From the NCBI RefSeq assembly GCF_003605405.2, contig NZ_QYTW02000027.1:1-61546 (forward strand): a DNA stretch of 61,546 nt, written 5' to 3'. A program made the translations under genes and the position numbers. Below are positions 6,665-47,339 of this stretch, in pieces. Source of the DNA: Siminovitchia terrae (GTDB lineage: Bacteria; Bacillota; Bacilli; Bacillales; Bacillaceae_C). The notes under the pieces are model-generated. The model did not search any database. It was not told the DNA's origin and saw only the letters and a list, made by a program, of their open reading frames with translations. Position 1 is the first letter of the stretch. Each line of letters opens with the position of its first letter.

Positions 6665-6857
6665 TAACTTCATTCAGCAGAAGTCTCACACTTTTGTAAG
6701 TGGTGAGATGAATGCATATTGGTATTTCATTCAGTAGGGGTTCAACCCCCGGCTGAATAAAGTTAAAGCCTCCGGCGGATGCCACAGATTTTCAGAGGGA
6801 ATTTATCGAACGGAGCTCGATAAAATCTGGGTACAAATACGCCAAGGCGCATTTGAT
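6665..6857 (+). repeat. 193-bp structured repeat, copy 1
   Basis: This is a full-length copy from TTAACTTCATTCAGC to CATTTGAT. The potential 50-codon frame inside it is closed by TAG, while the ATTCAG/CTGAAT and GGGG/CCCC pairings are kept. The apical stem reads TATCGAAC/GCTCGATA, with one mismatch. Confidence 0.9.
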
Positions 6858-6945
6858 ATACGGGATACTCTAGCCCACAGCCAGATTCCTTTTTTGTTTA
6901 TTTTACCTAATTTTTTTAAATTACGGCATAATAACGATGGTTGTT

Positions 6946-7137
6946 TAACTCATTCAGCAGAAGTCTCCCACTTCAGTAAGTGGTGAGATGAATGCCTATT
7001 GGTATTCCATTCAGTGGGGTTCAACCCCCGGCTGAATTAAGTTAAAGTCTCCGGCGGATGCCACAGATTTTCAGAGGAAATTTATCGAGCTTAAGCTCGA
7101 TAAAATCTAGGCGCAAATACGCTAAGGCGCATTTGAT
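6946..7137 (+). repeat. 193-bp structured repeat, copy 2
   Basis: This full copy ends 21 bases before the ATG of the MBL gene at 7159. Compared with other copies it has a 1-base deletion in the GGGGTTCAACCCC loop, which would shift any reading frame but keeps the stem. The apical stem is TTATCGAGC/GCTCGATAA with loop TTAA. Confidence 0.9.
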
Positions 7138-7158
7138 CTCATTGAAGGAGGATTATAA

Positions 7159-8016
7159 ATGGATAAAGAAATGAATTACGGAAGTGACTACAAATATATT
7201 CCAACAACCTCTATTGGAAGTGGCATTGGCATTGAGGTACTGCCAGATTTACTTTGTCATACTGTCCAAATCGTTAATATTCATTTAGTTGGAAATCCTG
7301 ACATGAAGGAATTTGTACTAGTTGATACAGGAATGCCTGAGTCGGCAAATGAGATTATTTCCGTTACCGAAGAGCGCTTTGGGGCAAACAGTCGGCCAAA
7401 AGCAATTATTTTGACACACGGCCATTTTGATCATGTTGGGGCTGTTATTGATTTGGTTAAACATTGGGAAGTTCCTGTATATGCACATAAGTTAGAAATT
7501 CCTTTCCTGACAGGTCAGAAAAGTTATCCGGAACCAGACCCAACGGTTGAAGGCGGTATGGTTGCAAAAATGTCCCCTATGTTCCCTAATGAACCGATTG
7601 ACTTAGGGAATAACGTGCAAATGCTACCTTTTGATGGAACGGTTCCCCATATGCCAGGGTTTAAATGGATTCATACACCAGGACATGCTCCAGGTCATAT
7701 TTCGTTATTCCGAGAAAAAGATCGAGCGTTAATCGCTGGAGATGCTTTTGTTACGGTAAAACAAGAATATCTGTATAAAGTGTTCACGCAAGAACAAGAG
7801 ATAAGCGGACCTCCTCGCTATCTGACAACGGATTGGGAAGCCTCCAAAGAATCCGTCATTAAACTTGAAGCATTGAAGCCTACAGTCGCTGTCACAGGCC
7901 ATGGGTTGCCAATGTCTGGTGAATTGCTAACAACGAGTCTGAAAAAACTCGTTAATCAATTTGATCAAATTGCTGTACCTGATTACGGAAAATATGTAAA
8001 TAAACATATGCAATAA
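7159..8016 (+). CDS. Metallo-beta-lactamase fold hydrolase
   Basis: This 285-residue MBL-fold protein has the metal motif HGHFDH at residues 87-92 (H87, H89, D91, H92). Further ligand positions are suggested by the TPGHAPGHISLF and GDAFVT stretches and the late TGHGLP motif. The fold hydrolyses thioesters, lactones or similar bonds using two metal ions; the substrate is unknown, and YflN-like Bacillus proteins are the nearest kind I recall. The ribosome site AAGGAGGATTATAA precedes the ATG. It begins right after repeat copy 2 and appears to be a single-gene unit. A hairpin with ACCCCC/GGGGGT arms follows at about 8111-8137. Confidence 0.88.
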   Translation: MDKEMNYGSDYKYIPTTSIGSGIGIEVLPDLLCHTVQIVNIHLVGNPDMKEFVLVDTGMPESANEIISVTEERFGANSRPKAIILTHGHFDHVGAVIDLVKHWEVPVYAHKLEIPFLTGQKSYPEPDPTVEGGMVAKMSPMFPNEPIDLGNNVQMLPFDGTVPHMPGFKWIHTPGHAPGHISLFREKDRALIAGDAFVTVKQEYLYKVFTQEQEISGPPRYLTTDWEASKESVIKLEALKPTVAVTGHGLPMSGELLTTSLKKLVNQFDQIAVPDYGKYVNKHMQ

Positions 8017-8650
8017 AGAAGAAAGCGCCTTTTTTGGAATTAAGAAGTAGGGAGGATAAATGATATTATTGCTTAGGTATCCTTATTAAAAAATTTAACA
8101 ACTTTATTTTACCCCCATCCAAAAACAGGACGGGGGTATGCGTGTTGGAATTACTAAGCTTGAACAATGCTCCTTGAATTTTGGATCCTTTATTAATTGT
8201 AATTCTGACATTTCCTTATTGCAGGTGATGACAGCTTCGCTGATTCTACCCCTACGATTGTGTTCTTTGGATTTTAGGGAAATAAAGAACTCCTATAAAC
8301 GAAATTGTCCAATTTTATAATGTGGATTTCTTTACACAAATTTTACACCTTAAAAAGGGGCCTTACTTTTTTGTGTGAAAAGATTATAGCCTTGTTTTTT
8401 GGTAATCTACCTAGATATAACTTTCTTCCGCATTTGACAAATCATTTTTTCTTGCTGTTGGGCAGATTTTTGTAATTCTGTACAGTTTATAGTCTTCAGA
8501 GCTTGTCAGCAACTCCTTTGCACATACCCAATTTTTCTGGGAGTCTAACTGCGGGTTACATGCTTCATCATTAAATTGAAGCTGGGTGTCATAAAAGTCA
8601 TTTTTCGAAACCAACTTCTAATTTTTGGGCTCCTCGTCAAACTCGCATTG
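8017..8650. other. Intergenic region, no supported gene
   Basis: A hairpin, ACCCCC at about 8111-8116 against GGGGGT at about 8132-8137, may end the MBL transcript but lacks a T-run. Two short frames (8138-8320 plus, 8411-8614 minus) have no usable ribosome site; the second would need a TTG start. The rest is AT-rich and unassigned. Confidence 0.4.
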
Positions 8651-9739
8651 TTAATTTAAAATAGGTAAGGTTATTGTGAATTTTGTACCTTGTTGCAACG
8701 CACTCTCTACTGAAATCGTGCCTTCATGCGCTTCAATCAAACTTTTCACAATCGCCATACCTAAGCCTGTTCCTTCAGATTTTTGTTCGGTCGTCGTACC
8801 TCGATAATAACGATTAAATAGATTTTGTTGTGTTTCCTCTGTCATCCCTATCCCGTTATCTTGGATACATATGTTTAACATTTCTTGTTGTTTTTCAATC
8901 GCAGTTGTAATCATAATGGGTGCTTCATTATGGATGACTGCATTCATATAAATATTTTGGAGTGCTCGTTTTAATAAATGTGGATCAAATCCCATGGTTA
9001 AATCATGTGATTCCGCTTGCAATTCAAAATGGTGCTTTTGTGCGCGCAAATCATTGCTAGAATCGGCTATAACATGTTGGACAAACGATACAATATTTTG
9101 TGTTGTTTTACGAATGGGTACAGACTGTGAGCCATCAAAGCGCATCGCTAAATTCAAGTCTTGCACAAGTTGCTCCATATGCGTCCCCTTATCATCAATT
9201 TCTTGAATGAAATTTCGCTGTTCTTCTTTTGACCAATCATAATCAGGATTTAATAATAATGTAGAATAGCCTTTAATATACGTTAAAGGTGTTTTCAAAT
9301 CATGTGAAATCCCCGCAATCCAGTCCCGTTTTGCTTTCTCAAGTTGCGCGCGTTCGCCCTTGGCTTTTTGCAACTGTGCCCGCATATGATCAAGTTGGGT
9401 GATAACTTCTTGATATAAGTGAAAGCGCATTTTAAACTTTCCTTTACGATTATAAATTTTATTACGCTCTATGAGTGGTGAAAAATCTTCATTCCCCAAT
9501 TGGTCAATCCATTTCATCACGAGTAATAAGGGGCTGCCAAAATACCAGCCGAACCATATGATCCATAGGATTGTAACAAAGCCAATGACAACCGTTACCA
9601 ACCATTCATAACGTTCGTCACCAAAACCCAGTTTCGGCAAAATTCCTTCCATTGCAAGGGGCACAGTTAAAGCTAAAAGCAATAGCCAAAAGACAAAACC
9701 CAATAATAAATGCTGAATAAAGCGTTGCTGGATTTTCAT
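8651..9739 (-). CDS. Sensor histidine kinase
   Basis: This 362-residue membrane kinase has two N-terminal transmembrane helices (residues about 12-30 and 46-66) with a very short external loop, as in intramembrane-sensing Bacillus kinases. Next comes a HAMP-like linker and coiled coil, the H-box SHDLKTPLTYIKG with H146, the N-box NIYMNAVIHNEAP, G1 DNGIGM and G2 GTGLGMAI. It should phosphorylate the OmpR-type regulator encoded just upstream; its ATG overlaps the regulator stop by one base, so translation is coupled. The divergent ABC transporter operon at 11.05 kb is the likely target, as in antimicrobial-peptide detoxification modules. That link is inferred from context. Confidence 0.9.
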   Translation of the reverse strand: MKIQQRFIQHLLLGFVFWLLLLALTVPLAMEGILPKLGFGDERYEWLVTVVIGFVTILWIIWFGWYFGSPLLLVMKWIDQLGNEDFSPLIERNKIYNRKGKFKMRFHLYQEVITQLDHMRAQLQKAKGERAQLEKAKRDWIAGISHDLKTPLTYIKGYSTLLLNPDYDWSKEEQRNFIQEIDDKGTHMEQLVQDLNLAMRFDGSQSVPIRKTTQNIVSFVQHVIADSSNDLRAQKHHFELQAESHDLTMGFDPHLLKRALQNIYMNAVIHNEAPIMITTAIEKQQEMLNICIQDNGIGMTEETQQNLFNRYYRGTTTEQKSEGTGLGMAIVKSLIEAHEGTISVESALQQGTKFTITLPILN

Positions 9740-10458
9740 TAAGCATCACCTGTTGGCGGAATAAATTTATAGCCAATCCCTCGCAAATTCACGATAATTT
9801 TTGGCTTCCTCGTATTGTCGCCTAACTTTTTGCGCAGCTTTGCAATATGAATCGTTACGGTTTTTTCTTCACCAAATACATCTTCTCCCCATACACGCTC
9901 ATAAATTTGTGAAGTCGTAAATACGCGGTTTGGATTTTCGCAAAAGAAATGCAGTAATTCTAACTCTTTTGCGGTAGTTTGAACTACTTCCCCATGCACA
10001 GTTAATAAAGCTTCATCTGGTGAAAATGAGAACGCGTTATATACATAGTTTTTCATTTCAGATTGTGCTGGTTTTTTTTCGTACTCACGCTGCCGTCTTA
10101 AAATAGCACGTATTCTTGCTACAACTTCAAGAGGGTTAAAAGGCTTTGTAATATAATCATCACCGCCTACACTAAGCCCTGTTAATTTATCAAAATCACT
10201 GGAACGTGCACTAATAAATAAAATGGGGGCTGTTGTTTGCTGACGAATGGCCGAACATAATGCAAAACCATCTCCGTCCGGCAGCATGACATCCAATAAA
10301 ATAATATCGAAATCCTGTTCCGTTAAGGCTTGCAGTGCCTCCGCTTTCGTTGCTGCCGTCGCAATATGTGTAAAATGCTCTTTTTGCAATGTGATCTCAA
10401 GGATTTTTAAAATGCCCACTTCATCATCCACTATTAAAATGTTTGCATCATCTGTCAT
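9739..10458 (-). CDS. OmpR-family response regulator
   Basis: This 239-residue two-domain regulator has a receiver domain with the acidic pair D11/D12 (LIVDDE), phospho-acceptor D56 (ILLDVMLPDGDG) and K105 (TKPFNP), followed by a winged-helix DNA-binding domain (KELELLHFFCENPNRVFT and TVTIHIAKLRKKLGD, ending RGIGYKFIPP). The ATG at 10458 is preceded by AGAGGGAATCGC. The frame extends upstream into repeat copy 3 but has no start signal there. It forms an operon with the kinase at 8651-9739. Confidence 0.92.
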   Translation of the reverse strand: MTDDANILIVDDEVGILKILEITLQKEHFTHIATAATKAEALQALTEQDFDIILLDVMLPDGDGFALCSAIRQQTTAPILFISARSSDFDKLTGLSVGGDDYITKPFNPLEVVARIRAILRRQREYEKKPAQSEMKNYVYNAFSFSPDEALLTVHGEVVQTTAKELELLHFFCENPNRVFTTSQIYERVWGEDVFGEEKTVTIHIAKLRKKLGDNTRKPKIIVNLRGIGYKFIPPTGDA

Positions 10459-10505
10459 GCGATTCCCTCTTTTTTGCAAGATAAAAAAGTTAATTTTTTT
10501 AGGTT

Positions 10506-10698
10506 TAACTTTATTCAGCAGAAGTCTCCCACATTTGTAAGTGGTGAGATGAATGCATATTGGTATTCCAATCAGTGGGGGTTCAAACCCCGGCTGAATA
10601 AAGTTAAAGTCTCCGGCGGATGCCACAGATTTTCAGAGGAAATTTATCGAGCAGAGCTCGATAAAATCTGGGCGCAAATACGCTAAGGCGCATTTGAT
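10506..10698 (+). repeat. 193-bp structured repeat, copy 3
   Basis: This full copy lies 47 bases upstream of the minus-strand regulator gene, so here the element runs against the neighbouring transcript. Left boundary TTTAACTTTATTC; right boundary GCATTTGAT. Both GGGG/CCCC and GAGC/GCTC stems are intact. Confidence 0.9.
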
Positions 10699-10727
10699 CA
10701 TTTTGAACAAAGTGCTTTGTTGTTCAG

Positions 10728-10910
10728 CTCCAGCGCCTATCGACTAGCAGACTTTGCGACAATGTGCTCCTGCGGCGAAGCGTATTCGAAGATGTTAACC
10801 TCACCTCGTCGCAAAGCTGCATGAAGCTTACTCACGAAGTAATCCAGTAAGCTGCTTTCCTACGATAAGTCAGTAGCACTCTAGTCTGTACGTCGATGAG
10901 CAAGGCGCTA
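10728..10910. repeat. Large foldable intergenic element
   Basis: Several distant arms pair in nested order: AGCGCC (10732-10737) with GGCGCT (10904-10909), ATCGAC (10739-10744) with GTCGAT (10892-10897), and TTTGCGAC (10753-10760) with GTCGCAAA (10808-10815). The sequence beginning CAGCTCCAGCGCCTA resembles a long repeat common in Bacillus genomes (recalled, not searched). Only one copy is in this window. The 10911-11049 stretch before the ABC gene is AT-rich and should hold its promoter. Confidence 0.5.
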
Positions 10911-11049
10911 TTCTTATTCTATTCTAACAAGTTTTCTTCTGCCATACCTGTCTTTTAAGTAAAAATTACGTACATTTTCCTGCCTGTTTACTTTATTTTT
11001 ACTTTCATCTTTTACGCTGTAATTAAGCAAATAAACGGGAGGCTTATGT

Positions 11050-11970
11050 ATGGATAACATGATTCAAACAAATCTATTAACAAAACGTTATACAGTCAAA
11101 CCTGTCATTAACCAAGTAAGTATGAATATTAAAGAAGGCGAAATTTATGGCTTTCTCGGTCCAAACGGTGCTGGAAAAACGACGTTGATGAAAATGATAT
11201 TGAATTTGGTAAAGCCGACATCAGGGGAAATTTTCATTCAAAATCGACCCATTATGACAAGTTCGTATAAATATTTAAAGGACATCGGCAGCCTCATTGA
11301 ATATCCGATTTTTTATGAGGAACTAACCGCACAAGAAAATTTGCAAATGCATTGTGCTTACATGGGATATAAGGACCAAAACCATATAAAAAAAGTGCTA
11401 GACATTGTAGGTTTACAGCAAATTGAAAAGAAGAAAGTAAAGGAATTTTCCCTTGGTATGCGTCAACGTCTGGCGATTGGGCGCGCCATTGTTGCTAAAC
11501 CCAAAATTTTAATTTTAGATGAGCCCATTAACGGATTGGATCCCATCGGTATTAAAGAAGTGAGAGAGCTGCTTGTCATGCTAAAACAGCAATATGGAAT
11601 GACCATTTTAATATCGAGCCATATCGTCTCAGAAATCGAATCCATTGCAGATACGATTGGCGTATTAAATGAGGGAGAACTAATTGAGGAAATTTCGATG
11701 CATTCCCTGCGTGATAAACAGCAATCCATGATAGAAATGGTGGTTAGTGACACGAAAAAAGCGAAACAGTTATTAGAGGAAAAATTCAACGCTAAAGTGC
11801 AGATCACGAATACTAGTACCCTGAATATTCAACAAATACACGAAAAGCCATCAACATTAACTAAGCATTTAATCATGCATGGTATAGATGTAGATGAGGT
11901 CGAAACTTTACACCAATCGTTAGAAGAATACTTTGTCAATCGTATTAATGGGAGGAAACAACATGCTTAA
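11050..11970 (+). CDS. ABC transporter ATP-binding protein (BcrA-like)
   Basis: This 306-residue ATPase has Walker A GPNGAGKTT, signature FSLGMRQRLAIGRAI, Walker B LILDEPINGLDP and the switch-histidine region ISSHIVSEIES. A C-terminal extension of about 90 residues is typical of ABC-2 type drug or lantibiotic exporters. It pairs with the permease that begins 8 bases before its stop codon. The ribosome site GGGAGG lies shortly before the ATG. The operon diverges from the two-component genes and probably answers to them. The substrate is not identifiable; antimicrobial peptide export is the usual role of this architecture. Confidence 0.9.
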   Translation: MDNMIQTNLLTKRYTVKPVINQVSMNIKEGEIYGFLGPNGAGKTTLMKMILNLVKPTSGEIFIQNRPIMTSSYKYLKDIGSLIEYPIFYEELTAQENLQMHCAYMGYKDQNHIKKVLDIVGLQQIEKKKVKEFSLGMRQRLAIGRAIVAKPKILILDEPINGLDPIGIKEVRELLVMLKQQYGMTILISSHIVSEIESIADTIGVLNEGELIEEISMHSLRDKQQSMIEMVVSDTKKAKQLLEEKFNAKVQITNTSTLNIQQIHEKPSTLTKHLIMHGIDVDEVETLHQSLEEYFVNRINGRKQHA

Positions 11971-13635: not shown

Positions 13636-13773
13636 TTAATTTTATTCAGCGGGGGTTCAAACCCCGGCTGAATAAAGTTAAAGCCTCCGGCGGATGCCAC
13701 AGACTTTCAGAGGAAATTTATCGAGCTAAAGCTCGATAAAATCTGGGCACAAATACGCCAAGGCGCATTTGAT
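13636..13773 (+). repeat. 193-bp structured repeat, copy 4 (internal deletion)
   Basis: The left hairpins are missing: the sequence passes straight from TTTATTCAGC into the GGGGGTTCAAACCCC stem. The lost piece is what would be removed by recombination between the two ATTCAGC/T direct repeats present in full copies. The 3' half is intact, with stem TTATCGAGC/GCTCGATAA. Confidence 0.88.
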
Positions 13774-13829
13774 TAGTAAAAAAACACTTGCGTTTTTTCA
13801 AGCATTGGGATAGTATATCTTTAACCAAC

Positions 13830-13847: not shown

Positions 13848-13904
13848 ATATAGAAATTTCAGTCTATTTATCACTAGCTGTTTTAATGGCTAAACTGCAT
13901 ATGT

Positions 13905-14099
13905 TAACTTCATTCAGCAGAAGTCTCTCACTTCAGTAAGTGGTGAGATGAAAGCGTATTGGTATTCCATTCAGTGGGGGTTCAAACCCCGGCTGAAATA
14001 AAGTTAAAGCCTCCGGCGGATGTCACAGATTTTCAGAGGAAATTTATCGAGCTAAAGCTCGATAAAATCCTGGCACAAATACGCCAAGGCACATTTGAT
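13905..14099 (+). repeat. 193-bp structured repeat, copy 5
   Basis: Full-length copy just before the acyl-CoA dehydrogenase gene; it ends CACATTTGAT. The apical loop is TAAA in stem TTATCGAGC/GCTCGATAA. One extra A in the CTGAAATAAAG stretch would break the fortuitous frame. Confidence 0.9.
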
Positions 14100-14115
14100 T
14101 TAATTTGTCTTTAAT

Positions 14116-15362: not shown

Positions 15363-15552
15363 CTTCATTCAGCAGAAGTCTCTCACTTCAGTAAGTGGTG
15401 AGATGAAAGCATATTGGTATTCCATTCAGTGAGGATTCAAACCCCGGCTGAATAAAGTTAAAGCCTCCGGCGGATGCCACAGATTTTCAGAGGAAATTTA
15501 TCGAGAGGAGCTCAATAAAATCTGGGCGCAAATACGCCAGGACGCATTTGAT
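15360..15552 (+). repeat. 193-bp structured repeat, copy 6
   Basis: Full copy whose TAA start serves as the stop codon of the acyl-CoA dehydrogenase. It ends 30 bases before the SDR start codon, so it fills the gene junction. The apical stem is weaker here (CGAGAGGAGCTC with a changed base). Confidence 0.9.
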
Positions 15553-19003: not shown

Positions 19004-19196
19004 TAACTTCATTCAGCAGAAGTCTCCCGCTTCTGTAAGTGGTGAGAGGAATGCCTATTGGTATTCCATTCAGTAGGAGTTCAAACCCCGGCTGAATAAA
19101 GTTAAAGCCTCCGGCGGATGCCACAGATTTTCAGAGGAAATTTATCGAGCGGAGCTCGATAAATTCTGGGCGCAAATACGCCAAGGCGCATTTGAT
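19004..19196 (+). repeat. 193-bp structured repeat, copy 7
   Basis: Full copy between the ComB-like gene and the transporter gene, ending 18 bases before the next start codon. The fortuitous frame is closed by TAG, but all stems are present (TTATCGAGC/GCTCGATAA with loop GGA). Confidence 0.9.
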
Positions 19197-23123: not shown

Positions 23124-24356
23124 ATGAGTAAGGTAGTCATATTAGGAGGGGCAGGAGGGATGGGATCAATGGCGATAAAAGATCTCGTCTTAAATAAGCG
23201 TTTCTCCGAAATAGTGATTGCGGATATAAATATAGAAGCGGCGAATCAAATTGTACAAGAAATAAATAGCGATCTCGTTTCAACTGCATCAATTAATGTA
23301 ACAGATCGAAAAGAATTAATACAATTATTATCGGATACATCAATCGTTATTAATTTTGTAGGTCCATTTTACCGATTTGCTCCAATGATTATCGAGGCTT
23401 GTATGGAGGCAAAAACAAATTATGTCGATATTTGTGACGATTATGATGCAGCAGAAGAGATTTTAAAAATGGACAAGCGTGTAAAAGATGCTGGAATTAC
23501 CGTATTAACAGGAATGGGGACTTCTCCAGGGATAACGAATATTTTAGTGAAAATGGGTATGGATCAATTGGATGAAACTGAAGAGGTGGAAACGATTTGG
23601 GTAATGGGAGAATCAGAGACAGGATCAGCCATTTTGTACCATGTATTTCATGGCGGAACGGGTCTCGTACCAGGCTATTCAGAAGGAAAACAAACGATGA
23701 TAAAACCTTTTCAAGAAGAAGGTTCATTAGTTGTTGAATTTCCGGAACCACTTGGGAAGGTAAAAGTGTATGATGTTGGTCATCCGGAGCCAATTACCAT
23801 TCCGCACTTTTACCCTGAAGTAAAAAGAGTAACGAATAAAGGGGCGCTGTTACCAAGTAAGATTGTGGATAATTTCAAAAAACTATTCGATTTAGGCTTT
23901 GGTTCAACGACACCTATAAATGTAAATGGGACGGACATCGCACCAAGAGATTTTGCAGTTCGTTTTTTACAAGAAAATCCTGAATTGCTTGCAGTAGGTG
24001 AATCTAATGGACTTGGTGGATTAAAAGTAATAGTCAAGGGGAAAAAAGAGGGAAAAGATTTAGGATTTGTTTATACAACTGTTAGCTCTGAACCGACAGC
24101 AGCTTCAGTAGCTATTCCAGCAGTAGTAGGGGCAGAATTAATTAAGGATGGGAAGGTAGATTCGATTGGAGTAATTGCCCCGGAAGTATTAAATCCTATG
24201 GATGTATTTGATTATTTAGGAAGCCGTAAAAGCGTAAATGAAGCATCTGTAAGCTCTGGTTTAATCATTGATATGATCTTAGATGATGGTTCCATTCAAT
24301 CCATTAAAAAGGGACGACCTTTAACTTCATTCAGCAGAAGTCTCCCACTTCAGTAA
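23124..24356 (+). CDS. Saccharopine-dehydrogenase-like NAD(P) protein (2), C-terminus altered by repeat
   Basis: This 410-residue paralogue of the preceding gene has the same landmarks (VILGGAGGMGSMAIKDL, NFVGPFYRFAPMIIEA, YVDICDDYDAAEEIL, TGMGTSPGITN). Its last 11 residues ([11 protein letters not shown]) are encoded by the first bases of repeat copy 8, which has landed in the 3' end of the gene and supplies a new stop. The core fold is complete, so activity may be kept. Tandem paralogues suggest a heterodimer or two successive reactions. Confidence 0.82.
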   Translation: MSKVVILGGAGGMGSMAIKDLVLNKRFSEIVIADINIEAANQIVQEINSDLVSTASINVTDRKELIQLLSDTSIVINFVGPFYRFAPMIIEACMEAKTNYVDICDDYDAAEEILKMDKRVKDAGITVLTGMGTSPGITNILVKMGMDQLDETEEVETIWVMGESETGSAILYHVFHGGTGLVPGYSEGKQTMIKPFQEEGSLVVEFPEPLGKVKVYDVGHPEPITIPHFYPEVKRVTNKGALLPSKIVDNFKKLFDLGFGSTTPINVNGTDIAPRDFAVRFLQENPELLAVGESNGLGGLKVIVKGKKEGKDLGFVYTTVSSEPTAASVAIPAVVGAELIKDGKVDSIGVIAPEVLNPMDVFDYLGSRKSVNEASVSSGLIIDMILDDGSIQSIKKGRPLTSFSRSLPLQ

Positions 24357-24512
24357 GTGGTGAGATGAATGCCTATTGGTATTCCATTCAGCGGGGGTTC
24401 AAACCCCGGCTGAATAAAGTTAAAGCCTCCGGCGGATGCCATAGATTTTCAGAGGAAATTAATCGTGCGGAGCTCGATAAAATCTGGGCGCAAATACATC
24501 AAGGGCATTGAT
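24322..24512 (+). repeat. 193-bp structured repeat, copy 8 (inside a gene end)
   Basis: Nearly full copy that begins within the coding frame of the second saccharopine-dehydrogenase-like gene and provides its TAA stop at 24354-24356. The right end is slightly eroded (GGGCATTGAT). Confidence 0.9.
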
Positions 24513-26141: not shown

Positions 26142-26302
26142 CTTCATTCAACGGAAGTCTCCCACTTCTGTAAATGGTGAGATAAATGCTAGTTGGTATT
26201 CCATTAAGTAGGGGGGCGAAGCCCGGCTGAATATGGCGGATGCCACAGATTTTTTAGAGGAAGTGTATCGAGGGAGCTCGGTAAAATCTGAGCGCATTTG
26301 AT
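26139..26302 (+). repeat. 193-bp structured repeat, copy 9 (degenerate)
   Basis: Shortened and diverged copy (164 bp) with losses in the middle; it still starts TTTTAACTTCATTC and ends GCGCATTTGAT. Its TAA is the stop codon of the carboxyltransferase gene. It ends 32 bases before the next start codon. Confidence 0.82.
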
Positions 26303-30716: not shown

Positions 30717-31760
30717 TGTATGGGAAAATGGCCATAAAGTGCGAAGAAGCTGGTTTTATCTTTATTGGGCCTAGTCCAACTATTATGGAACATATGGGAG
30801 ACAAAATGGCTGCAAGTTAATGGATGAAAAAAGTAGGTGTTCCTGTTATACCAGGAACAGATGAGCCACTTTCCAATTTAGAAGAAGCATTAGAAATAGC
30901 CAATACAATTGGTTACCCAATTATGCTGAAGGCAGCAGGTGGTGGAGGTTATTGGCCTTCAAATTGTACATGATGATGTGGAGCTAATGAAGAGTTTTGC
31001 AAGTAACTCTAAACGGGCTGAACAATTTTTAGGAAATAGTTCGATGTTTATTGAGAAACTATTAAAAAATGTACTGCATATAGAAATACAAGTACTAGCT
31101 GATCATTTTAGCAACATTGTTTAATCCAAAGAAGAAACCAAAAAATAATTGAAGAAGCTCCATCTTCCTTTATTTCAGAGAGCACAAGAAAAAAGATGGG
31201 AGAAGTATCTGTTCAAGCTGCAAAAGAAATTGGCTATACAACCGCTGGAACAATTGAATATTTAGTAGATGGTCAGGAGAACTTTTACTTTTTAGAAATG
31301 AATATAAGGATACAAGTAGAACACCCCGTAACAAAGGAAATAACAGGATTGGATATCGGCGAAAATCAGATTTTGGTTGCTAATAGAGAAAGACTTCGTT
31401 TAGATCAAAATTTATTAAAAATAAATGGGCATGCAATAGAGATAAGAGTATATGCAGAAGATCCGGTCCGCTTCTTTCCGTCACCTGGAAAAATAACGAA
31501 TTAAACGAGCTCAGCTGATGTTTTTATTCGTATGGAATCATCTGTTACGAATCAAAGTGTAGTATCACCATTTTATGATCCAACGATAAGCAAACTCATC
31601 GTTAAAGGTAAGAGGCTATCACTAGACTTAAACGAGCCCTTGTAAAGTATAAAATTGAAGGAATTAAAACAAATCTGCCAATGCTGCAGAAAATTGTGAA
31701 TCATGAACAATTTTTTTTACAGGGAATACTACGACAAATTTTATTAATAAATATTATATA
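30717..31760 (+). pseudogene. Decayed biotin carboxylase (AccC-type) gene
   Basis: Pieces of a biotin carboxylase can be read in order but in different frames. GDKMAAS followed by a stop, then [27 protein letters not shown], then EKLLKNVLHIEIQVLADHFSNIV and a stop, then TAGTIEYLVDGQENFYFLEMN, RIQVEHPVTKEITGLDIGE and INGHAIEIRVYAEDP, and finally PFYDPTISKLIVKG. At least two in-frame stops and several frameshifts are present, and the N-terminal ATP-grasp start (about 80-100 residues) is missing. It cannot make a working enzyme. The intact biotin carrier follows at 31796. Confidence 0.9.
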
Positions 31761-31795
31761 CCGACTAACCAGAAATGATATAAGGAGGAAAAATC

Positions 31796-32008
31796 ATGAG
31801 TGAAGTAAAAGCAACGATGCCGGGGAATGTATGGAAAGTAATAGTCGAAGTAGATGATGAAGTTACAGAAGATCAAGATATTGTGATTTTAGAATCAATG
31901 AAAATGGAAATCCCAATATCTACTGGAACAGCGGGTTTAATTCAGGAAATAAAAGTATCAGAGGGCGATTTTATAAATGAAGGAGATGTTATTGCAATTA
32001 TCAAGTGA
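31796..32008 (+). CDS. Biotin/lipoyl carrier protein (BCCP-like)
   Basis: This 70-residue stand-alone carrier domain has the biotinylation motif ESMKME with K36. It has the flanking hairpin residues typical of acyl-CoA carboxylase carriers (ATMPGNVWKVIVEVDDEV and SEGDFINEGDVIAII). The lysine would carry biotin between a biotin carboxylase and a carboxyltransferase. Ribosome site AAGGAGG lies upstream. The TGA stop is created where the truncated repeat copy 10 begins. With its biotin carboxylase decayed, it depends on one encoded elsewhere, or is on the way to loss. Confidence 0.88.
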   Translation: MSEVKATMPGNVWKVIVEVDDEVTEDQDIVILESMKMEIPISTGTAGLIQEIKVSEGDFINEGDVIAIIK

Positions 32009-32100
32009 AAGCCACCGGCGGATGCCACAGATTTTCAGAGGAAATTTATTGAGCGGAGCTCGATAAAATCTGGGCGCAAATACGCCAAGGCGCATTTGAT
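32005..32100 (+). repeat. 193-bp structured repeat, copy 10 (3' half only)
   Basis: Only the part from GTGAAAGCC to GCGCATTTGAT remains, with the TTATTGAGC/GCTCGATAA stem. The junction provides the TGA stop of the biotin carrier gene. Confidence 0.88.
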
Positions 32101-33485: not shown

Positions 33486-33678
33486 TAAACTTCATTAGCA
33501 GAAGTCTCCCACTTCAGTAAGTGGTGAGATGAATGCCTATTGGTATTCCATTCAGTGGGGGTTCATCCCCCGGCTGAATAAAGTGAAAGCCTCCGGCGGA
33601 TGCCACAGATTTTCAGAGGAAACTTATCGAACGAAGCTCGATAAAATCTGGTCGCAAATACGGCAAGGCGCATTTGAT
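33486..33678 (+). repeat. 193-bp structured repeat, copy 11
   Basis: Full copy upstream of the third CoA ligase, starting GTTTAAACTTCATTAGC. The apical stem is TTATCGAAC/GCTCGATAA. The 33679-33805 stretch up to the ligase is otherwise empty. Confidence 0.9.
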
Positions 33679-35507: not shown

Positions 35508-35685
35508 TAACTTCATTCAGCAGAAGTCTTCCACTTCAGTAAGTGGTGAGATGAATGCATATTGGTATTCCATTCAGTGTGGGTTCAAACCCCGGCTGAA
35601 TAAAGTTAAACCACAGATTTTCAGAGGAATTTATCGAGCGGAGCTCGAGAAAATCTGGGCGCAAATACGCCAAAGCGCATTTGAT
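35508..35685 (+). repeat. 193-bp structured repeat, copy 12
   Basis: Copy with a short internal loss removing the CTCCGGCGGATG hairpin; the outer ends are normal (TTTTAACTTC, GCGCATTTGAT). It lies 44 bases after the ligase stop. The 35686-35834 remainder is intergenic with no gene. Confidence 0.88.
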
Positions 35686-40150: not shown

Positions 40151-40324
40151 TCAATAAAAAGGGGGAAAGTTAAGAAATTAAGTTTAAAATGTTAACAAAA
40201 TACTGAATCCGTTTACAAAAGGTGTTGCCAATTAAAAGTGATTCATACGAGAATCTATCATAGAAATATAGTAATATGGATAAAAGTGATAATCTAAACA
40301 AACGGGCGGGTGAAGGTATTGAAA

Positions 40325-43051
40325 ATGGAAGACTGCTTGGTAAAAAGAGCATATTACGAGGAAAAGTTCTTGCAAGGAGACTTGGAGGAGCATCCCATTC
40401 GCCAGTTGGGAGAGCTTTATTTAGAAGAACAAAAAAAGGATATGGCCGATCTGTCTTATATTCGATTTGCCCAAGGTGAAGTGTACTTTCATAACTGTGA
40501 TTACGAGGCAGCCATTTTTAAATGGGAGAACATACATAATGAACTGGAGCCTTGGGCAAAAAAGAATATCGCTGATGCGTACTTTGAACTTGGCTTTTTG
40601 AGCACAGCGGAGGATATTTACAAATCAATAACATCAGACTCCCTTATCTTGAATACAGAAGTGGCTCTGCAGTTGTTCACACTTTATTTGGAACAGCAGA
40701 AGTATCCAGAGGCTGACCAAATGATTAAAAATGCCGTTGCTATTCATCCGGATTATCAGAATGTGACGGAGCTGGCATGCGCCTTTTTTGAAGAACAGGA
40801 AGATTGGAACAGTGCAGTTGAGCTTGCTGTAAACGAAGCGGCGCGGACGAAATTGCCTGAATGGTTCCAAAAGATTCATTCTTTCATTGAGAATGGTCAT
40901 ACAAAATCGCAGGGGGCCTCTCATTTTGTACCAATCCTATATTTGGCACAAAAGGTGGATCTTGCTTTATTTGAAAAATTGATGGCAGCCCTTTGGAAAA
41001 GCCATGAACAGCGTGAAGATTATTTGTCATGGATCACGGAAGCCACCATCATTTTACTTGATTCAGATTTGCAGCATTCGTATAAATGGAAGTCATTGCC
41101 TGAGTTAATAAATAACACTTTTATACAATTGCTTTCGGGAAGGTATAATTTGGCAGACCTAACAGAAATCTTGCCGAATCTTTTGACTGCATGGCTGAAG
41201 GTTGCGGATATTAAAACGACTCCATTGGCATCAGCTGGTGTGTTAGCATGGAACGATGTCTTTCCTTCACAGATGAATCAGGAAGTAGTCCACTCTGCGG
41301 AAGAAAGTCTGGCAAAATCGGCTGATCAGGGGACGCTGATGGAAAAAATATCCGGACTGGTCGAGGTTATCCAGAAATGGGCAGATGAAAGAGATTTGAA
41401 CCTTCACAAAAGATTCGAAAGCAGCTTAAACCAGCTTTCAGATTTAAAATCGAGAAGGTGGATGATCGCGGGCAAATCAAACAGTGGGAAGTCCTCATTT
41501 GTCCATTTAATGCTTAAGCAGCCAGACAGCAGCTTAATTGATACATCTCTTCCCGTTTTATACAAGAACGGAGAAGAAACTGGATTTCAGTTGATGGCTG
41601 ATGAAGGAATATCGGCCGTTACAACGAGCAAGGAAATTATTGAGGCAGAAAGTCGGCAGGACACCATGCTTGTCTACTTAGAACCCAATGCTTTTTTACA
41701 AAAGCATGATGTTGCGATCATCGATTATCCAGATCTGAATGGACTGAACAAAAAAAATAAACATTTTCTGGAATATGTGAGGATGAGCGACAGCTTGTTA
41801 TTCGTCCTAAATTCAATTGAACCATTTTCTACTCAAGAATGTGAGTTTTTATTGGATGTGACAGAAAGAGTCCCTTTATGTCCTGTTCATTTTGTATTGA
41901 AAAAGAGTGAACAGCTGACCTCTGATAAGATTTCTGTTATTGGAAAAAGAATCAAAAACTATTTCCCAGATGCTGAGTTGATCATATACTCTGCAGAAGA
42001 GGACGATGAACAGCAGCAGGAGGCACTGTCCCATTTTATCGATCAGCACCTTAAAACAGAGCGGAACGAACGACTTCGGAGTGGAAACATGCTGTTTTTT
42101 ATCCGTGGAACAATCAAACACTTACTTCAGCAGCAAGTAAAGGTGGAGGAAAAGCTGCTCAAATCCATACAATTCGATGAGGATTTGCTTTCAAAACTTC
42201 AGGGGGCTATCCATCAGCTTTATGATTTGGAAGAAGAAAAGACAAAAGTAATTCAAAGTGCTTACCGGTCGCTTAAAGATGAAATACAAGCTGATATTTT
42301 AAATACGATTCCGAAATTGATTAAAGAATCTGCAGATATTCTTCGCGAGGATAGTGATTTTGGCAACATTCATCATGAATTGAATGATGAAATGAACAAA
42401 AGGATTGACGAGTACTTGCAATATACCGTCCACCCCGCATATATCAGTTCCCTGCAAAACTGGATCAGCTTATCGGAAGGCGAGCTGAATGAAGCTCAGG
42501 AACTATTGATCAGTTGGAATGACAGCTTCAATGATCTGATGGGGGAAGAGCGGATCCGTTTGGAATGTGATTTTCAAATTTTAGCAGATTGGCAGCGGGA
42601 TGCTGACAGGATGACTGGAGCTATTCAAATGGACCAGGAAAATATTTTGTTAAAGAGGACTCCTTCTCAGGTGCTGCTGAAAAGTGCAGGGAAGATATTC
42701 GGCGTTATCCCAGCGAATAATACGATGATGTATAACAGATATAAAAGCTTCGTTGAAAATGAAAATTACAATGAGACTGCGGAATCGATCGCAAACAAGT
42801 TTTTCCGCCAGTTTGAAATCCTTGAAAAAGCCATTCCGCGGGATATTTCCCTGTTTTTCAAGGAACCTTTTACAGCTTTGAAAAAATCAGCTGCTTCTTA
42901 TCAGGAGCAAGTTGATCAAAACAAGACAGCGCTCACTGAAATGAAATCTCATCCGGAGACTTTCCGTGATCCAATCAGACTGTTTGATGTGCGCTTGCGC
43001 CAACTGGAATGGCTTGAATTTCAGGAGAAAAGCAACAAGCACGTATACTGA
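40325..43051 (+). CDS. TPR-containing dynamin-like GTPase
   Basis: This large protein is about 908 residues long. Its N-terminal third has TPR-like helical repeats ([58 protein letters not shown]). A GTPase domain follows with P-loop [11 protein letters not shown] near residue 385, DYPDLNG (G3) near 467 and LKKSEQ (G4-like). A long, charged helical C-terminal region has coiled-coil character ([21 protein letters not shown]). This resembles bacterial dynamin-like proteins but with TPRs instead of a second GTPase. GTG or TTG starts 15 or 6 bases upstream are possible. It precedes mgsA with a 41-base gap. Confidence 0.8.
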
Positions 43052-43092
43052 TTATAAGGTCTTTGAATTTTAATGAAGAAAGAGGGAAAGCT

Positions 43093-43500
43093 TTGAACGT
43101 AGCCTTGATTGCTCACGACAAGAAAAAGGATAACATAGTCCAATTCGCAATGGCCTACCGCCATATCCTAAAGGATCACAAACTTTACGCAACAGGAACA
43201 ACCGGATCTAGAATTCAAGAAGCAACCGGCCTAGACATCCAGCGGTTCGAGTCCGGGCCGCTTGGAGGCGACCAGCAAATTGGAGCATTAGTTGCTCAAA
43301 ATCAAATAGACATGATTATTTTCCTCCGAGATCCCCTGACCGCTCAGCCGCATGAGCCGGATATATCGGCATTGATGAGGCTGAGTGATGTGTACGGTGT
43401 TCCCTTAGCTACCAATATGGGGACCGCTGAACTGTTAATTCGGGGCTTGGAACGCGGAGACCTTGAATGGAGATCAATCATTCACAGTGAATTACATTAA
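43093..43500 (+). CDS. mgsA: Methylglyoxal synthase
   Basis: This 135-residue enzyme converts dihydroxyacetone phosphate to methylglyoxal, a bypass for triose-phosphate accumulation. Motifs: [17 protein letters not shown] at the start, [14 protein letters not shown] (phosphate binding), [27 protein letters not shown] with the catalytic Asp and His, and [11 protein letters not shown]. The TTG at 43093 follows AGAGGGAAAGC and matches the family N-terminus; an earlier TTG in frame has no site. It may be co-transcribed with the GTPase gene. Confidence 0.93.
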
Positions 43501-43590
43501 AAACAGCAGCCTTAATGAACTGTACTCCAATTGTTAGATAATAATCGGGGTGCAGTTTTTTAGTTTATCTGGATAGAGACAGAAAGCTGC

Positions 43591-43635
43591 TGGACAAACT
43601 GAAAAACTTCTGATAAAATGACTGATAGTCAGTCA
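43591..43635 (+). promoter_or_regulatory. Promoter and operator of the TetR/SMR operon
   Basis: TGGACA (43591-43596), 17 bases, TAAAAT (43614-43619), followed at once by the palindrome TGACTGA-TAG-TCAGTCA (43619-43635). The operator overlaps the -10 element, so a bound repressor would block the promoter. The same 17-base palindrome recurs at 44261. Confidence 0.75.
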
Positions 43636-43646
43636 TTGAGGGGAGG

Positions 43647-44231
43647 ATGGTCGATATAAGTAAGAAAGAGAAAATAATTAATGCTGCGGTTCAGGTTTTT
43701 CAGGAGAAAGGCATTGAAAAAACCAAGGTTTCAGATATTGTCAAATTAGCTGGAATCGCGCAGGGAACTTTTTATTTATACTTTCCTTCAAAGCTGTCAG
43801 TGATGCCTGCCATTGCTGAGGTAATGGTTAAAAAGTTTATGGTCGAAGTCAAAAATGAGGTGGATGAGAGTGACTCAATCTCCACTCAGTTGTCCCAAAT
43901 TGTGAATGCTATTTTCAGGGTTACAAAGAATTATCGGGAAGTATTGGCATTGATCTATGCAGGGCTTTCCACTGATGATAATTTGAAAAACTGGGAAACG
44001 ATTTACGATGCTTTTTACTCTTGGATGAGTGACTTTTTAACAACTGCTAAATTAAATGGGAAAATAAGGAGTTCTGTTCACCCGGAACGTACGTCAAAGT
44101 TAATGATTGCCTTTATAGAGGCTGCTGCTGAGCAGATATACTTGTATGATGCAGTGAATGAAGAAGAAGAGAGAATGCAAAAATCAGAACTTATTATGTT
44201 TTTGGAGCATGCACTGGGCATTCAGAACTAA
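43647..44231 (+). CDS. TetR-family regulator (YvdT-like)
   Basis: This 194-residue TetR regulator has DNA-binding domain EKIINAAVQVFQEKGIEKTKVSDIV and IAQGTFYLYFPSKLSVMP, and a helical ligand-binding domain. It is followed by two small multidrug resistance genes, the same arrangement as Bacillus subtilis yvdT-yvdS-yvdR. Identical TGACTGA-TAG-TCAGTCA palindromes before it and before the SMR pair point to auto-regulation and repression of the efflux genes. The GGGGAGG site is very close to the ATG. Confidence 0.88.
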   Translation: MVDISKKEKIINAAVQVFQEKGIEKTKVSDIVKLAGIAQGTFYLYFPSKLSVMPAIAEVMVKKFMVEVKNEVDESDSISTQLSQIVNAIFRVTKNYREVLALIYAGLSTDDNLKNWETIYDAFYSWMSDFLTTAKLNGKIRSSVHPERTSKLMIAFIEAAAEQIYLYDAVNEEEERMQKSELIMFLEHALGIQN

Positions 44232-44260
44232 TTTACCAGCGCATTTCTTTTTGAAGAAAA

Positions 44261-44277
44261 TGACTGATAGTCAGTCA
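44261..44277. promoter_or_regulatory. Second TetR operator, before the SMR pair
   Basis: TGACTGA (44261-44267), TAG, TCAGTCA (44271-44277) repeats exactly the operator at 43619-43635. It lies between the regulator and the first SMR gene, allowing separate control of the efflux genes. Confidence 0.72.
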
Positions 44278-44301
44278 AGGAATAGATGGAGAGTGTTATT
44301 T

Positions 44302-44646
44302 GTGAATAAGTCATGGTTGTATGTTGGATTAACAAGCTTGTTTGAGTTATTTTGGATCTTTGGTTTTAATCATGCTGCAGTATGGTGGCATTGGCTAATT
44401 GTTGTCGGATTGATCATAGTAGATTTCCAATTTTTATATAAAGCTTGTGAGGGTCTCCCGACCGGAACAGTGTATGCCGTTTTTGCCGGAATTGGTACAG
44501 TGGGTACAGCATTAATGGACGTTTTCCTTTTTGGAGGAAGCTTTAATGGCGGAAAACTACTATTTATTTTTATTGTAGTGGTCGGAGTCATCAGCTTAAA
44601 CATTGCTGATCTGAAAGATGAACAAAAAAGAGAGGCTGTAGAATGA
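44302..44646 (+). CDS. Small multidrug resistance (SMR) protein, subunit 1
   Basis: This 114-residue membrane protein has four helices, with the key Glu of the SMR family in helix 1 (LTSLFELFWIFGF). The conserved GTVYAVFAGIGTVGTALMDV in helix 3 is also present. It starts with GTG after GGAGAG. It pairs with the next gene to form a heterodimeric EmrE-type exporter driven by protons; guanidinium or quaternary compounds are usual substrates. A tail of about 10 charged residues follows helix 4. Confidence 0.88.
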   Translation: MNKSWLYVGLTSLFELFWIFGFNHAAVWWHWLIVVGLIIVDFQFLYKACEGLPTGTVYAVFAGIGTVGTALMDVFLFGGSFNGGKLLFIFIVVVGVISLNIADLKDEQKREAVE

Positions 44647-44960
44647 TGGGATGGTTATTCGTATTTTTAGCATCAGCCAGTGAAATAACAGGCGTGATGG
44701 GGTTGAAAATGTTCAGTGAAAAGAAAACGATCAGAAATGGAGCGATCTATCTCGGTGGATTTGCAGCTTCTTTCGTTTTCCTTTATGAGTCACTAAATTA
44801 TTTACAGTTGACTGTTGCTTATTCCGTATGGATTGGAGTAGGAACGGCAGGTGCTGTACTTGTTAACATGCTTTTTTTTGGTGAATCGAAAAGTCTTGCG
44901 CGAATTGCAAGTTTGTTTTTGATCATTGTCGGAGTGACAGGACTTAAAGCAGTTTCGTGA
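44643..44960 (+). CDS. Small multidrug resistance (SMR) protein, subunit 2
   Basis: This 105-residue partner of the preceding SMR protein has the helix 1 Glu (LASASEITGVMGLKMF), LTVAYSVWIGVGTAGAVLVNM and a C-terminal LIIVGVTGLKAVS. Its ATG overlaps the previous stop in an ATGA junction, so the two are coupled and probably made in equal amounts. A strong terminator follows. Confidence 0.88.
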   Translation: MMGWLFVFLASASEITGVMGLKMFSEKKTIRNGAIYLGGFAASFVFLYESLNYLQLTVAYSVWIGVGTAGAVLVNMLFFGESKSLARIASLFLIIVGVTGLKAVS

Positions 44961-44986
44961 GGCGGGGAATAGCTTGTCAAAATAAT

Positions 44987-45031
44987 TAAAAAAGGTTCCA
45001 ACCACCAAAGCGGACGGTTGGAACCTTTTTT
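44987..45031 (+). terminator. Terminator after the SMR operon
   Basis: GGTTCCAACC (44994-45003) pairs with GGTTGGAACC (45016-45025), followed by TTTTTT. The A-run before the stem makes it look two-way. Confidence 0.88.
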
Positions 45032-45455
45032 ATAGGTTGCTTTTTTGCTTAAATAGCATACTGGTTGTTCGTGGCGATGTATTACCTTAAGTTCACAGCC
45101 ATGAACGCAAATCCTCATTCGTTTTCCGCTTTCTCTTGGCTCCTTATGGACAAACGGGTAAAACGCAAATTGGCCTTTAGGACCTAAAGACTCGCTCCAC
45201 CTCAAATTCACGTTTTCTGTGTAGAACTTCCCCGGTCTTCTCTTTTGAAAGCTGTTGAGCATAAATATGCTGAAAAGTAACAAACAGAATCTAAACAAAG
45301 AAAAAAAGAAATTATTTATTAGATGATAGTAGTTTAATTTTTATCTCTGTAAAAATCTTCTTACTCATAATTTCTACGTCACCATGTTGATTTCTCTAGT
45401 TGTAGTTCTTAATTATAGGTAGACTTTTTATGTTTCTACTTTATAGAGTACACTT
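45032..45455. other. Intergenic region, no supported gene
   Basis: A minus-strand open frame (44819-45298) crosses the terminator and the SMR gene and is not credible as a gene, although its middle resembles a peptide stretch I have seen repeated in Bacillus intergenic sequence. No promoter, RNA or gene is assigned. Confidence 0.4.
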
Positions 45456-45629
45456 TAACTTCATTCAGCAGAAGTCTCCCACTTCTGTAGGTGGTGAGAT
45501 GAATGCCTATTGGTATTCCATTTAGTGGGGGTTCAAACCCCAGCTGAGTGAATAAAGTTAAAGCCCCCAGCGGTGCCATAGATTTTCAGAGGAAATTTAT
45601 CGAGCGGTGCTCGATAAAAGTGGGGCTAT
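45456..45629 (+). repeat. 193-bp structured repeat, copy 13 (degenerate)
   Basis: The left two-thirds are recognisable from TTTAACTTCATTCAGC, with a small insertion at CAGCTGAGTGAATAAAG. The 3' end is lost: after the TTATCGAGC/GCTCGATAA stem it continues AAGTGGGGCTATTTT. Confidence 0.8.
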
Positions 45630-45704
45630 TTTATTTTTTTCGAACGTAATTCTTAACCATGAGAGATGTAGTTTTAGTTGGATTATTCTGACGGTTTATT
45701 CTGG

Positions 45705-46376
45705 TCACTTTTTTAGAACTTTAACTTCAAACGGATATAAAGTTAAATGAAAGCACATATGAACCAGTATTGCAGCAAATATGCCATTATCATAAAATTG
45801 CCATCCACAAATAATGCCTACAAGCATATTACCAATAAATATGTAGCTATACAGTGTAAATGATTTCCCGACTATTGAGGAACCGTGATAATGTGCTAGG
45901 GTAAAAATCAAACTAGATACAACTATAGATATGAGCACCGATTGCGTGATCCAAAGTAGTAAACTCAGGATTCCCCAACGAAAGATTAGCTCTTCAACTA
46001 CACTAGCATACAGTATTCGATTAGCGATGCCAATTGAATTTCTATGTTTTTCAATCTTATAAAAAGCTTTGCCTAAAAGAGGTTTAAAGAAACCATAATA
46101 GATTAAAATATGTGTAATTGAACATCCAATACCTACTATAGCTGCCTCAATCCAACTACTAATATAGATATTCTCTGCATTAAGATTTATTTTATTGATT
46201 AATGCGACACCCAATGCTACAAATATACTTAGGAAAACCATTTGTAAAATAATAGCTACAATAATAGGTACTTCTCTTTTTCCCGAAGCCGATTTTTTAT
46301 TAAGCATAATTGAAGAAATAGTCGTACCTGGGATAGAGATAGAAACGAGAGTTAAAAACACCGCCCAATTAAACAT
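45705..46376 (-). CDS. CPBP-family intramembrane metalloprotease
   Basis: This 223-residue protein with about seven membrane helices carries the CPBP (Abi) motifs VVEELIFRWGIL (EExxxR), FTLAHYHG and the late HMCFH. Family members are glutamic/metal intramembrane proteases or escort proteins, linked to prenyl-protein processing, bacteriocin self-immunity or maturation. Its ATG overlaps the end of the MarR-type gene by 8 bases, so it is the downstream partner of that regulator. Target unknown. Confidence 0.85.
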   Translation of the reverse strand: MFNWAVFLTLVSISIPGTTISSIMLNKKSASGKREVPIIVAIILQMVFLSIFVALGVALINKINLNAENIYISSWIEAAIVGIGCSITHILIYYGFFKPLLGKAFYKIEKHRNSIGIANRILYASVVEELIFRWGILSLLLWITQSVLISIVVSSLIFTLAHYHGSSIVGKSFTLYSYIFIGNMLVGIICGWQFYDNGIFAAILVHMCFHLTLYPFEVKVLKK

Positions 46377-46821
46377 GGTCAGATTCCTCAGTGATTAGAG
46401 TATACAATTTTTTGGCAAAATCTCTAAATTGCTTTGTTTCTTTTATGGATAATTTAGAATAATACTTTTCTATAACTAAGTCATCCATTTCCTCATACTT
46501 TTTAAAAAATTCCTTTCCTTTCTTACCTACTGTCACCAAAATTTCCCTTCTATTTTGGGGATTAATACTTCTTGAGACATAGTTTTCTTGCTCTAGCTTA
46601 TTAACCAGTTGACTTACTGAACTCATTGATAGGTGTAACTGATGAGATATGTCTTGAATCTTTGCTGGTTCAATTTCATTTATAAGATGTAGTACCATAA
46701 ACTGCTTTGGTGAGAGTTCAATTTCTAGTAAAGAGTAATAGTTTATTACTAAATGATGATTGATTTTATCAAATAATAAAAAACCTTCTTTAATAAATTC
46801 ACCTTGGTTCAAATTATTCAC
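46369..46821 (-). CDS. MarR-family transcriptional regulator
   Basis: This 150-residue winged-helix protein has SPKQFMVLHLINEIEPAKI, QDISHQLHLSMSSVSQLVNKLEQENYV (recognition region) and the wing NPQNRREILVTVGKKG. It probably controls itself and the CPBP protease gene. The region upstream has two GTTTAAC copies that could belong to its operator. AAGAGGTGAATA precedes the ATG. Confidence 0.9.
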   Translation of the reverse strand: MNNLNQGEFIKEGFLLFDKINHHLVINYYSLLEIELSPKQFMVLHLINEIEPAKIQDISHQLHLSMSSVSQLVNKLEQENYVSRSINPQNRREILVTVGKKGKEFFKKYEEMDDLVIEKYYSKLSIKETKQFRDFAKKLYTLITEESDHV

Positions 46822-47146
46822 CTCTTAATATTTATAAAGTTAAACATTTTATGTATATAAATAGTTCGTTTGGTTAAACTATATGCGTTGTATTTAGAAT
46901 TGTCAAGAAAGTACAGGGCAGATATGAGGTAAAGGCTCTGTATTTATAGTGTAGATACTCTGACATTGAATGGCTCCAAGATGTACAAGTTAAAATCAGG
47001 TAACTATATTACAGCAAATACACAGTATGTGGAAAAAGTGTAAATACAAAAATAACCGGCGCTGACCGGCCTTTATTATGCGAATATGGATTTAAGTGTG
47101 GTAACAAACGTAAGTTTGTTATTATTAAACTAACAGTCTAGTTTAT
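46822..47146. other. Intergenic region upstream of the MarR gene
   Basis: It should contain the MarR-operon promoter; two GTTTAAC direct repeats lie at about 46840-46885 on the minus strand. No gene is visible between here and repeat copy 14. Confidence 0.4.
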
Positions 47147-47339
47147 TAACTTCATTCAGTAGAAATTTTCCACTTCTGTAAGTGGTGAGATGAATGCATA
47201 TTGGTATTCCATTCAGTGGGGGCTCAAACCCCGGCTGAATAAAGTCAAAGCCTCCGGCGGATGCCACAGATTTTCAGAGGAAATTTATCGAGCGGAGCTC
47301 GATAAAATCTGGGCGCAAATGCGCCAAGGCGTATTTTAT
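47147..47339 (+). repeat. 193-bp structured repeat, copy 14
   Basis: Full-length copy with a changed right end (GGCGTATTTTAT). The fortuitous reading frame stays open here, but others are closed. It precedes the PPOX-like gene by about 65 bases. Confidence 0.88.

Follow-up and report, generated by a model that had tools for sequence, protein, structure and literature searches.

Passages in PMC6006769 and PMC5934647 describe lagging-strand insertion, guide words and, for IS608, cleavage words in transposons of the IS200/IS605 kind, and the IS608 code applied below derives partly from a portion of the latter source. Among the closest described counterparts of the element considered here are the palindrome-associated transposable elements (PATEs) of Haloquadratum, which, in the relevant part of PMC3119063, lack a transposase gene, terminal inverted repeats and target duplications, carry palindromes near ends related to those of IS605-type elements, and are active although intact tnpA is scarce. 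Repetitive extragenic palindromes and bacterial interspersed mosaic elements (REP/BIME) are likewise short, folded and intergenic, with the enzyme, TnpA-REP, supplied in trans (in part of PMC6006769), whereas bcr1–bcr3 of Bacillus cereus are interspersed structured repeats with a TTTAT motif, resembling miniature inverted-repeat transposable elements by description and called restricted to the B. cereus group in passages of PMC6542083 and PMC3446304. Here, we analysed a repeat present in 14 copies in a 61,546-nt stretch of Siminovitchia terrae DNA (hereafter, the window), which opens one of the 68 contigs of a 5.3-Mb genome (G000; other genomes are denoted in the same way).

This repeat, about 190 bp long, is probably a mobile element that lacks a transposase and behaves in the manner of IS200/IS605 elements; membership in that family is not proven, on account of a right end that does not agree and of a parent element that was not seen among the loci examined. 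Like PATEs, it has near-terminal palindromes but neither inverted ends nor target duplication, and is too short to encode a transposase. Unlike in PATEs, only its left palindrome is related to IS605-type ends, the right one having no such relative among 91 tnpA/tnpB loci, and the right domain forms a separate, larger conserved fold; furthermore, the repeat resides in Bacilli rather than archaea, and a replication-strand bias has been measured for it. The family had not been recognised in an earlier note on this DNA, made by a model from the sequence alone, and we found no description of it in the literature searched and no Rfam family at gathering score (the best sub-threshold match in part of the window reaches 27.5 bits against the 75 needed). 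The repeat provides natural material for testing target choice by base pairing in single-strand transposons, and, with a left end like that of IS605 and a foreign right end, raises the question of the enzyme that moves it.

Unit, target and orientation

BLAST with the consensus detects the 14 copies, all on the + strand of the window, and a 15th match that is the palindrome of copy 4 read on the opposite strand (Table 1). Together with the alignment, this bears out the 14 copies, fixed ends and hairpins listed in the earlier note, whose tally of three shortened or decayed copies, however, rises to five (copies 4, 9, 10, 12 and 13). The 193-bp unit proposed there has to be trimmed. Where the window has an empty site, CACTTTTAA/TTGG (slashes mark junctions), genome G003 reads CACTTTTAA/CTTC...TTTAAT/TTGG, and tandem copies on contig C7 of G000 are joined head to tail, right end to left end, by seamless TTTGAT/CTTCATTC junctions at 3 places, compared with 0 places in G000 for a reversed control pattern. 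Because the empty site keeps TTAA and the tandem copies fuse TTTGAT to CTTCATTC, the left TTAA belongs to the target rather than to the element; therefore, the full unit is C...TTTGAT, about 190 bp, starting behind the target TTTAA. At three sites occupied in G003 but vacant in the window, the insertion lies behind TTTTAA, TTTTAA and TTTTTAG, with no duplicated target, the remaining G003 comparison sites being too diverged for the insertion point to be read.

The target word is fixed on the left only. Across 94 copies from five genomes (those of 124 near-full copies that could be anchored by a pattern, which itself demands A at −1), the left flank reads T in 82, T in 91, T in 90 and A in 92 copies at positions −5 to −2, and no fixed word is found in the right flank of the same copies. 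The direction of insertion is nearly constant with respect to replication. With the leading strand taken from GC skew per stretch (usually 20 kb; the window was used whole), 157 of 165 copies of at least 90 bases in nine genomes are oriented with the G-rich strand: 92/95 in G000, 12/12 in G001, 13/14 in G003, 7/7 in G005 and 12/14 in G049, as well as, in genomes of another order, 8/9 in G471, 8/8 in G770, 3/3 in G644 and 2/3 in G675. Many of these stretches were picked for holding copies, not by their strand relative to the skew. The same counts amount to the lagging-strand-template preference of IS200/IS605 elements. When both neighbouring genes are opposed to the repeat, replication is still followed by 8 of 9 copies, and 131 of 142 copies are intergenic (both by crude open-frame gene calls). 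Given that 1066 of 1430 leading-strand TTTAA words lie inside open frames, insertions into genes appear to be purged. The orientation of the element serves as a record of replication direction.

More copies lie outside the window: on its contig, at 62,603, at 62,991 and at the contig end, and in G000 at large, where a loose scan returned 609 candidate places, 40 of which were scored. In 140 kb of G000 picked regardless of matches, there are 10 copies of at least 90 bases, from which we extrapolate to roughly 400 copies, an estimated 1 to 2 percent of the genome.

That several hundred places share a target word and a near-constant direction relative to replication suggests movement in the form of single-stranded DNA, by means of a borrowed enzyme. 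This enzyme would be a Y1 (HUH) transposase acting in trans, and the intermediate would be a single-stranded circle with joined ends. Target choice may be encoded in the element itself: the guide word AAGT, directly 5′ of the left hairpin H1, fits the TTAA target by the IS608 code, and the TTTAA-type repeat carries GAAGTC whereas a TTTAT copy in G471 carries GAAGAC. A second target-linked element could be the 3′ arm of a long stem, P1, which is complementary to the target flank. This arm matches the flank at −1 in 166 of 186 copies (shuffled maximum, 147; some rows are one base off), and in seven TTTAT-like rows, from G471 and G675, the arm is the matching one. The notion of the arm as a strict target guide was dropped, since −2 is mismatched in 45 of the 186 copies.

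At the few sites shared between genomes (the window, and L117 against L068, L069, L118 and L119), G000 copies are mostly closer to the consensus than their G003 or G001 orthologs, and the orthologs are often less alike than the paralogs are at their median identity of 0.938, a pattern that may reflect slower decay, conversion or chance.

A covarying fold

P1, absent from the earlier note, pairs the target flank with an internal arm (TTTAACTTCATTCAG with CTGAATAAAGTTAAA). The hairpins reported in that note are present in the alignment, although one of them, ATTCAG-GGGG/CCCC-CTGAAT, competes with the longer P1, and P1 is what diverged relatives without the middle ATTCAG retain (by eye). Short forms with P1 alone on the left include copy 4 of the window and occur also in G156, G471 and G675.

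The covarying fold of the repeat is supported. Among 44 diverse sequences, 86 percent of the cells in the drawn structure pair and 50 cells change on both sides, compared with 26 in shuffles (0 of 500 shuffles reach 50); the 16 pairs that show two-sided change do not exceed the shuffles, 110 of 500 of which have as many, and RNAalifold on the gappy alignment A2 returns just 3 pairs. For the right domain, we aligned wider relatives to a model of that domain (59 matches, 51 of them distinct; at E 0.008, the weakest overlaps another copy on the opposite strand), so that the following figures lean towards the model. In this alignment, pairing holds in 94 percent of cells, two-sided change is seen at 18 of 29 pairs and in 82 cells (21.9 in shuffles), and the score is 0.214 against 0.100 in shuffles and at most 0.054 in slid controls. 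Entire stems are rewritten in relatives such as G099, and in G471 P1 is rewritten as TTTATCTTGGTTCAG paired with CTGAACCAAGATAAA (both by eye).

This covariation agrees with the contention of the earlier note that structure rather than protein is conserved. Indeed, we rejected a protein-coding function: the consensus has one open frame, and among 87 near-full G000 copies the frame is intact in 32 and not kept in 55 (51 with a stop and 28 shifted, the two classes overlapping). Third codon positions change slightly more often than the others (0.054 versus 0.034 and 0.029), which, by contrast, points towards coding.

The halves of the repeat diverge to slightly different extents in G000 (right, about 3 percent; left, 4.6 percent). 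The idea of slower evolution of the right half, prompted by identical right halves in G156, was abandoned, those G156 copies having been selected by right-half score and the G000 difference being small. At the tip of P5, an extra two-hairpin domain occurs in the same place in three genera (L126/L128 of G030, L193/L200 of G043 and L334:273-430 of G675).

Relation to IS200/IS605 elements

The left 61 nt of the repeat resemble the left end of a tnpB element in G004 (E 1.8e-5, in a small database), and six further tnpB loci match them weakly (E 0.007–0.13). A pattern scan of 41 tnpB loci, with the register set by eye, yielded 14 left ends besides repeat copies, of which seven combine TTTAA with GAAGTC (two of them near-copies in one genome), five combine TTTAT with GAAGAC and two deviate, so that the target/guide-word rule is obeyed in 12 of 14. 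The tnpB elements of related Bacillales (L153, L171, L173 and others) share with the repeat a left end composed of TTTAA/C, 10–12 nt, AGAAGTC, a hairpin and GATGAAT. Unlike the repeat, they include tnpB, and their right end is TTCAC or TTCAA (TTCAT in L173) following a hairpin with GAAG or GAAT, whereas that of the repeat is TTTGAT or ATTGAT behind CGCC-AA-GGCG. In seven tnpB right ends read by eye, TCAC goes with GAAG or TCAA with GAAT, a pairing of end words and guide words that is the IS608 code.

Candidate sources were not borne out: the IS200-type tnpA elements of G000 and G003 have different ends, and the tnpB elements combine a similar left end with a different right end. Repeat copies 360–420 bp behind two tnpB genes of G000 are independent of them, as those tnpB elements have right ends of their own. 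An autonomous element with both ends of the repeat was seen neither in the 91 tnpA/tnpB loci nor in L169 or L173, in a search that was not exhaustive and that, in most genomes, covered the best-scoring copies only.

Several observations weigh against an element of the IS200/IS605 type. The right-end model, run over the 91 tnpA/tnpB loci, gave a single match, which is itself a repeat copy next to the remnant of a tnpB gene. By the IS608 code, a TGAT end needs C-A-N-A beside the right hairpin, which is present in CAAAT lineages and absent in the CAATT lineages G049 and G471 (by eye). Copies without H1 are common in G471 and G675, and the IS605-like hairpin may therefore be dispensable. At two of the three best-read empty sites, the insertion point is uncertain by one base. 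Finally, no Y1 domain was found in G156 and G276, both carriers, and most non-carriers have Y1 domains too. Taken together, the IS200/IS605 lead of the earlier note stands for the target word, the lack of duplication, the strand bias, the junctions and the left end with its guide word, and falls short at the right end. The copy beside the remnant lies at L168:1891-2440 (G000 contig C12, near 248 kb), and the remnant matches tnpB over the last about 100 residues only.

Distribution

By DNA similarity, the repeat occurs in 7 of 40 relatives and in 12 of 34 genomes of the family (G000 included), with no match in G002 and G004 of the same genus as G000. With nine candidates scored per genome, the right-domain model is positive for 25 of 397 genomes in the order and for 18 of 398 in the class (G000 counted in both). 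Members of several families of Bacilli carry the repeat. Plasmid and phage collections and viral contigs gave no match at the sensitivities used. This patchy distribution fits horizontal spread or loss. Y1 domains were detected in 18 of 20 carriers and, among relatives irrespective of whether they carry the repeat, in 27 of 31.

Alternative explanations

The foreign right end invites a tentative and rather doubtful elaboration, namely, that the repeat is a chimeric single-strand transposon, in which an IS605-type, DNA-guided left end is combined with an independent, strongly conserved folded right domain and the P1 arm helps read the target. The right domain would then be either a new kind of transposase-recognised end or an RNA, and the pairing of the P1 arm with the target would be a natural equivalent of the longer pairing that was engineered into IS608 3′ of its left hairpin. 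Numerous, folded, intergenic copies could also be explained by a REP/BIME-like family whose mobilising enzyme comes from a lone chromosomal Y1 gene of the REP-associated tyrosine transposase (RAYT, TnpA-REP) type, rather than from an IS605 transposase, but we consider this unlikely. G000 does encode a lone Y1 protein of 188 aa, which we take to be of the RAYT type, and Y1 matches occur at the corresponding places in G003 and G001, with similar ones in many carriers. However, this gene is not flanked by copies, the nearest lying some 3.4 kb from it in G000 and some 1 kb from it in G003 and G001, and such matches are also found in genomes where the repeat is not. Moreover, AAGT rather than GTAG precedes the hairpin on its 5′ side, and, at 190 bp, the unit exceeds the 21–65 nt of REPs given in a portion of PMC6006769. 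The bcr1 repeat is of similar size, structured and tied to TTTAT (in parts of PMC6542083 and PMC2267715), and TTTAT-type copies of the 190-bp repeat do exist; nevertheless, a bcr1-like Bacillus repeat moved by other means, such as the site-specific recombination suggested for the TTTAT repeats of B. cereus, is, in a comparison made by description, quite improbable, because the strand bias and the guide word fit single-strand transposition.

Two further explanations shift the emphasis from movement to function. The right 105 nt could be a transposon-borne structured RNA, guide-like as in TnpB or IscB systems or of a new class, with its 3′ end abutting the flank, in which case the RNA would be under selection and mobility secondary. 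Strong covariation, the retention of the hairpin GCCTCCGGCGGATGC across families, a right-end position matching that of TnpB guide RNAs and, in the right-half stems, 52 G-U pairs against 19 A-C mispairs, as expected if the + strand folds, all speak for such an RNA. Yet RNA and single-stranded DNA cannot be told apart by the G-U excess, which, on another alignment, is reversed in P1 (14 to 34) and P6 (11 to 30); besides the lack of an Rfam match, G005 has no tnpB match and G003 a single one, interrupted by a stop, so that we give this explanation little credence. A regulatory element that serves the host and is retained by selection site by site would agree with the closeness to the consensus of most G000 copies compared with those of G003 at the few shared sites, and with a ribosome-binding site and start codon behind 30 of 87 G000 copies compared with 74 of 364 intergenic TTTAA sites (p 0.007). 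Set against the patchy distribution, the empty site in the window, the tandem junctions and an orientation that follows replication rather than genes, this appears very improbable. Single-strand transposition with a borrowed enzyme remains the explanation that we favour.

Features of the window

Table 1. Repeat copies, landmarks of copy 7 and an empty site in the window
Feature	Position	Strand	Remarks
Copy 1	6668..6857	+	190 bp, behind TTTAA
Copy 2	6949..7137	+	189 bp, behind TTTAA; followed by a sequence like a ribosome-binding site and a start codon
Copy 3	10509..10698	+	190 bp, behind TTTAA
Copy 4	13640..13773	+	134 bp, short form; P1 and one inner hairpin; without the IS605-like hairpin
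Copy 5	13908..14099	+	192 bp, behind GTTAA
Copy 6	15363..15552	+	190 bp; more decayed copy at the equivalent G003 site
Copy 7	19007..19196	+	190 bp; copy at the equivalent G003 site
Copy 7, target TTTAA	19002..19006		
Copy 7, guide word and hairpin H1	19020..19046		
Copy 7, P1 3′ arm	19092..19106		
Copy 7, P4	19107..19121		
Copy 7, P5	19124..19168		
Copy 7, P6	19173..19194		right-end palindrome
Copy 8	24325..24512	+	188 bp
Copy 9	26142..26302	+	161 bp, internal losses; shortened copy at the equivalent G003 site
Copy 10	32000..32100	+	right half alone
Copy 11	33490..33678	+	189 bp
Copy 12	35511..35685	+	175 bp, without P4
Copy 13	45459..45634	+	damaged right end (end approximate)
Copy 14	47150..47339	+	190 bp, right end TTTTAT
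Empty site of a G003 copy (opposite strand)	40231..40238		TTTTAA/TTGG on the strand of the element

Within positions 31196-32100, the open reading frame 31196-31504 is a biotin-carboxylase fragment, and a nearby frame, which resembles a biotin carrier domain by eye, seems to stop inside the truncated copy 10. A 264-bp tandem repeat in nine to ten diverged copies occupies positions 59034-61546, up to the window end, and a PreQ1 riboswitch (Rfam RF00522, 54.1 bits) lies on the minus strand at 889-933.

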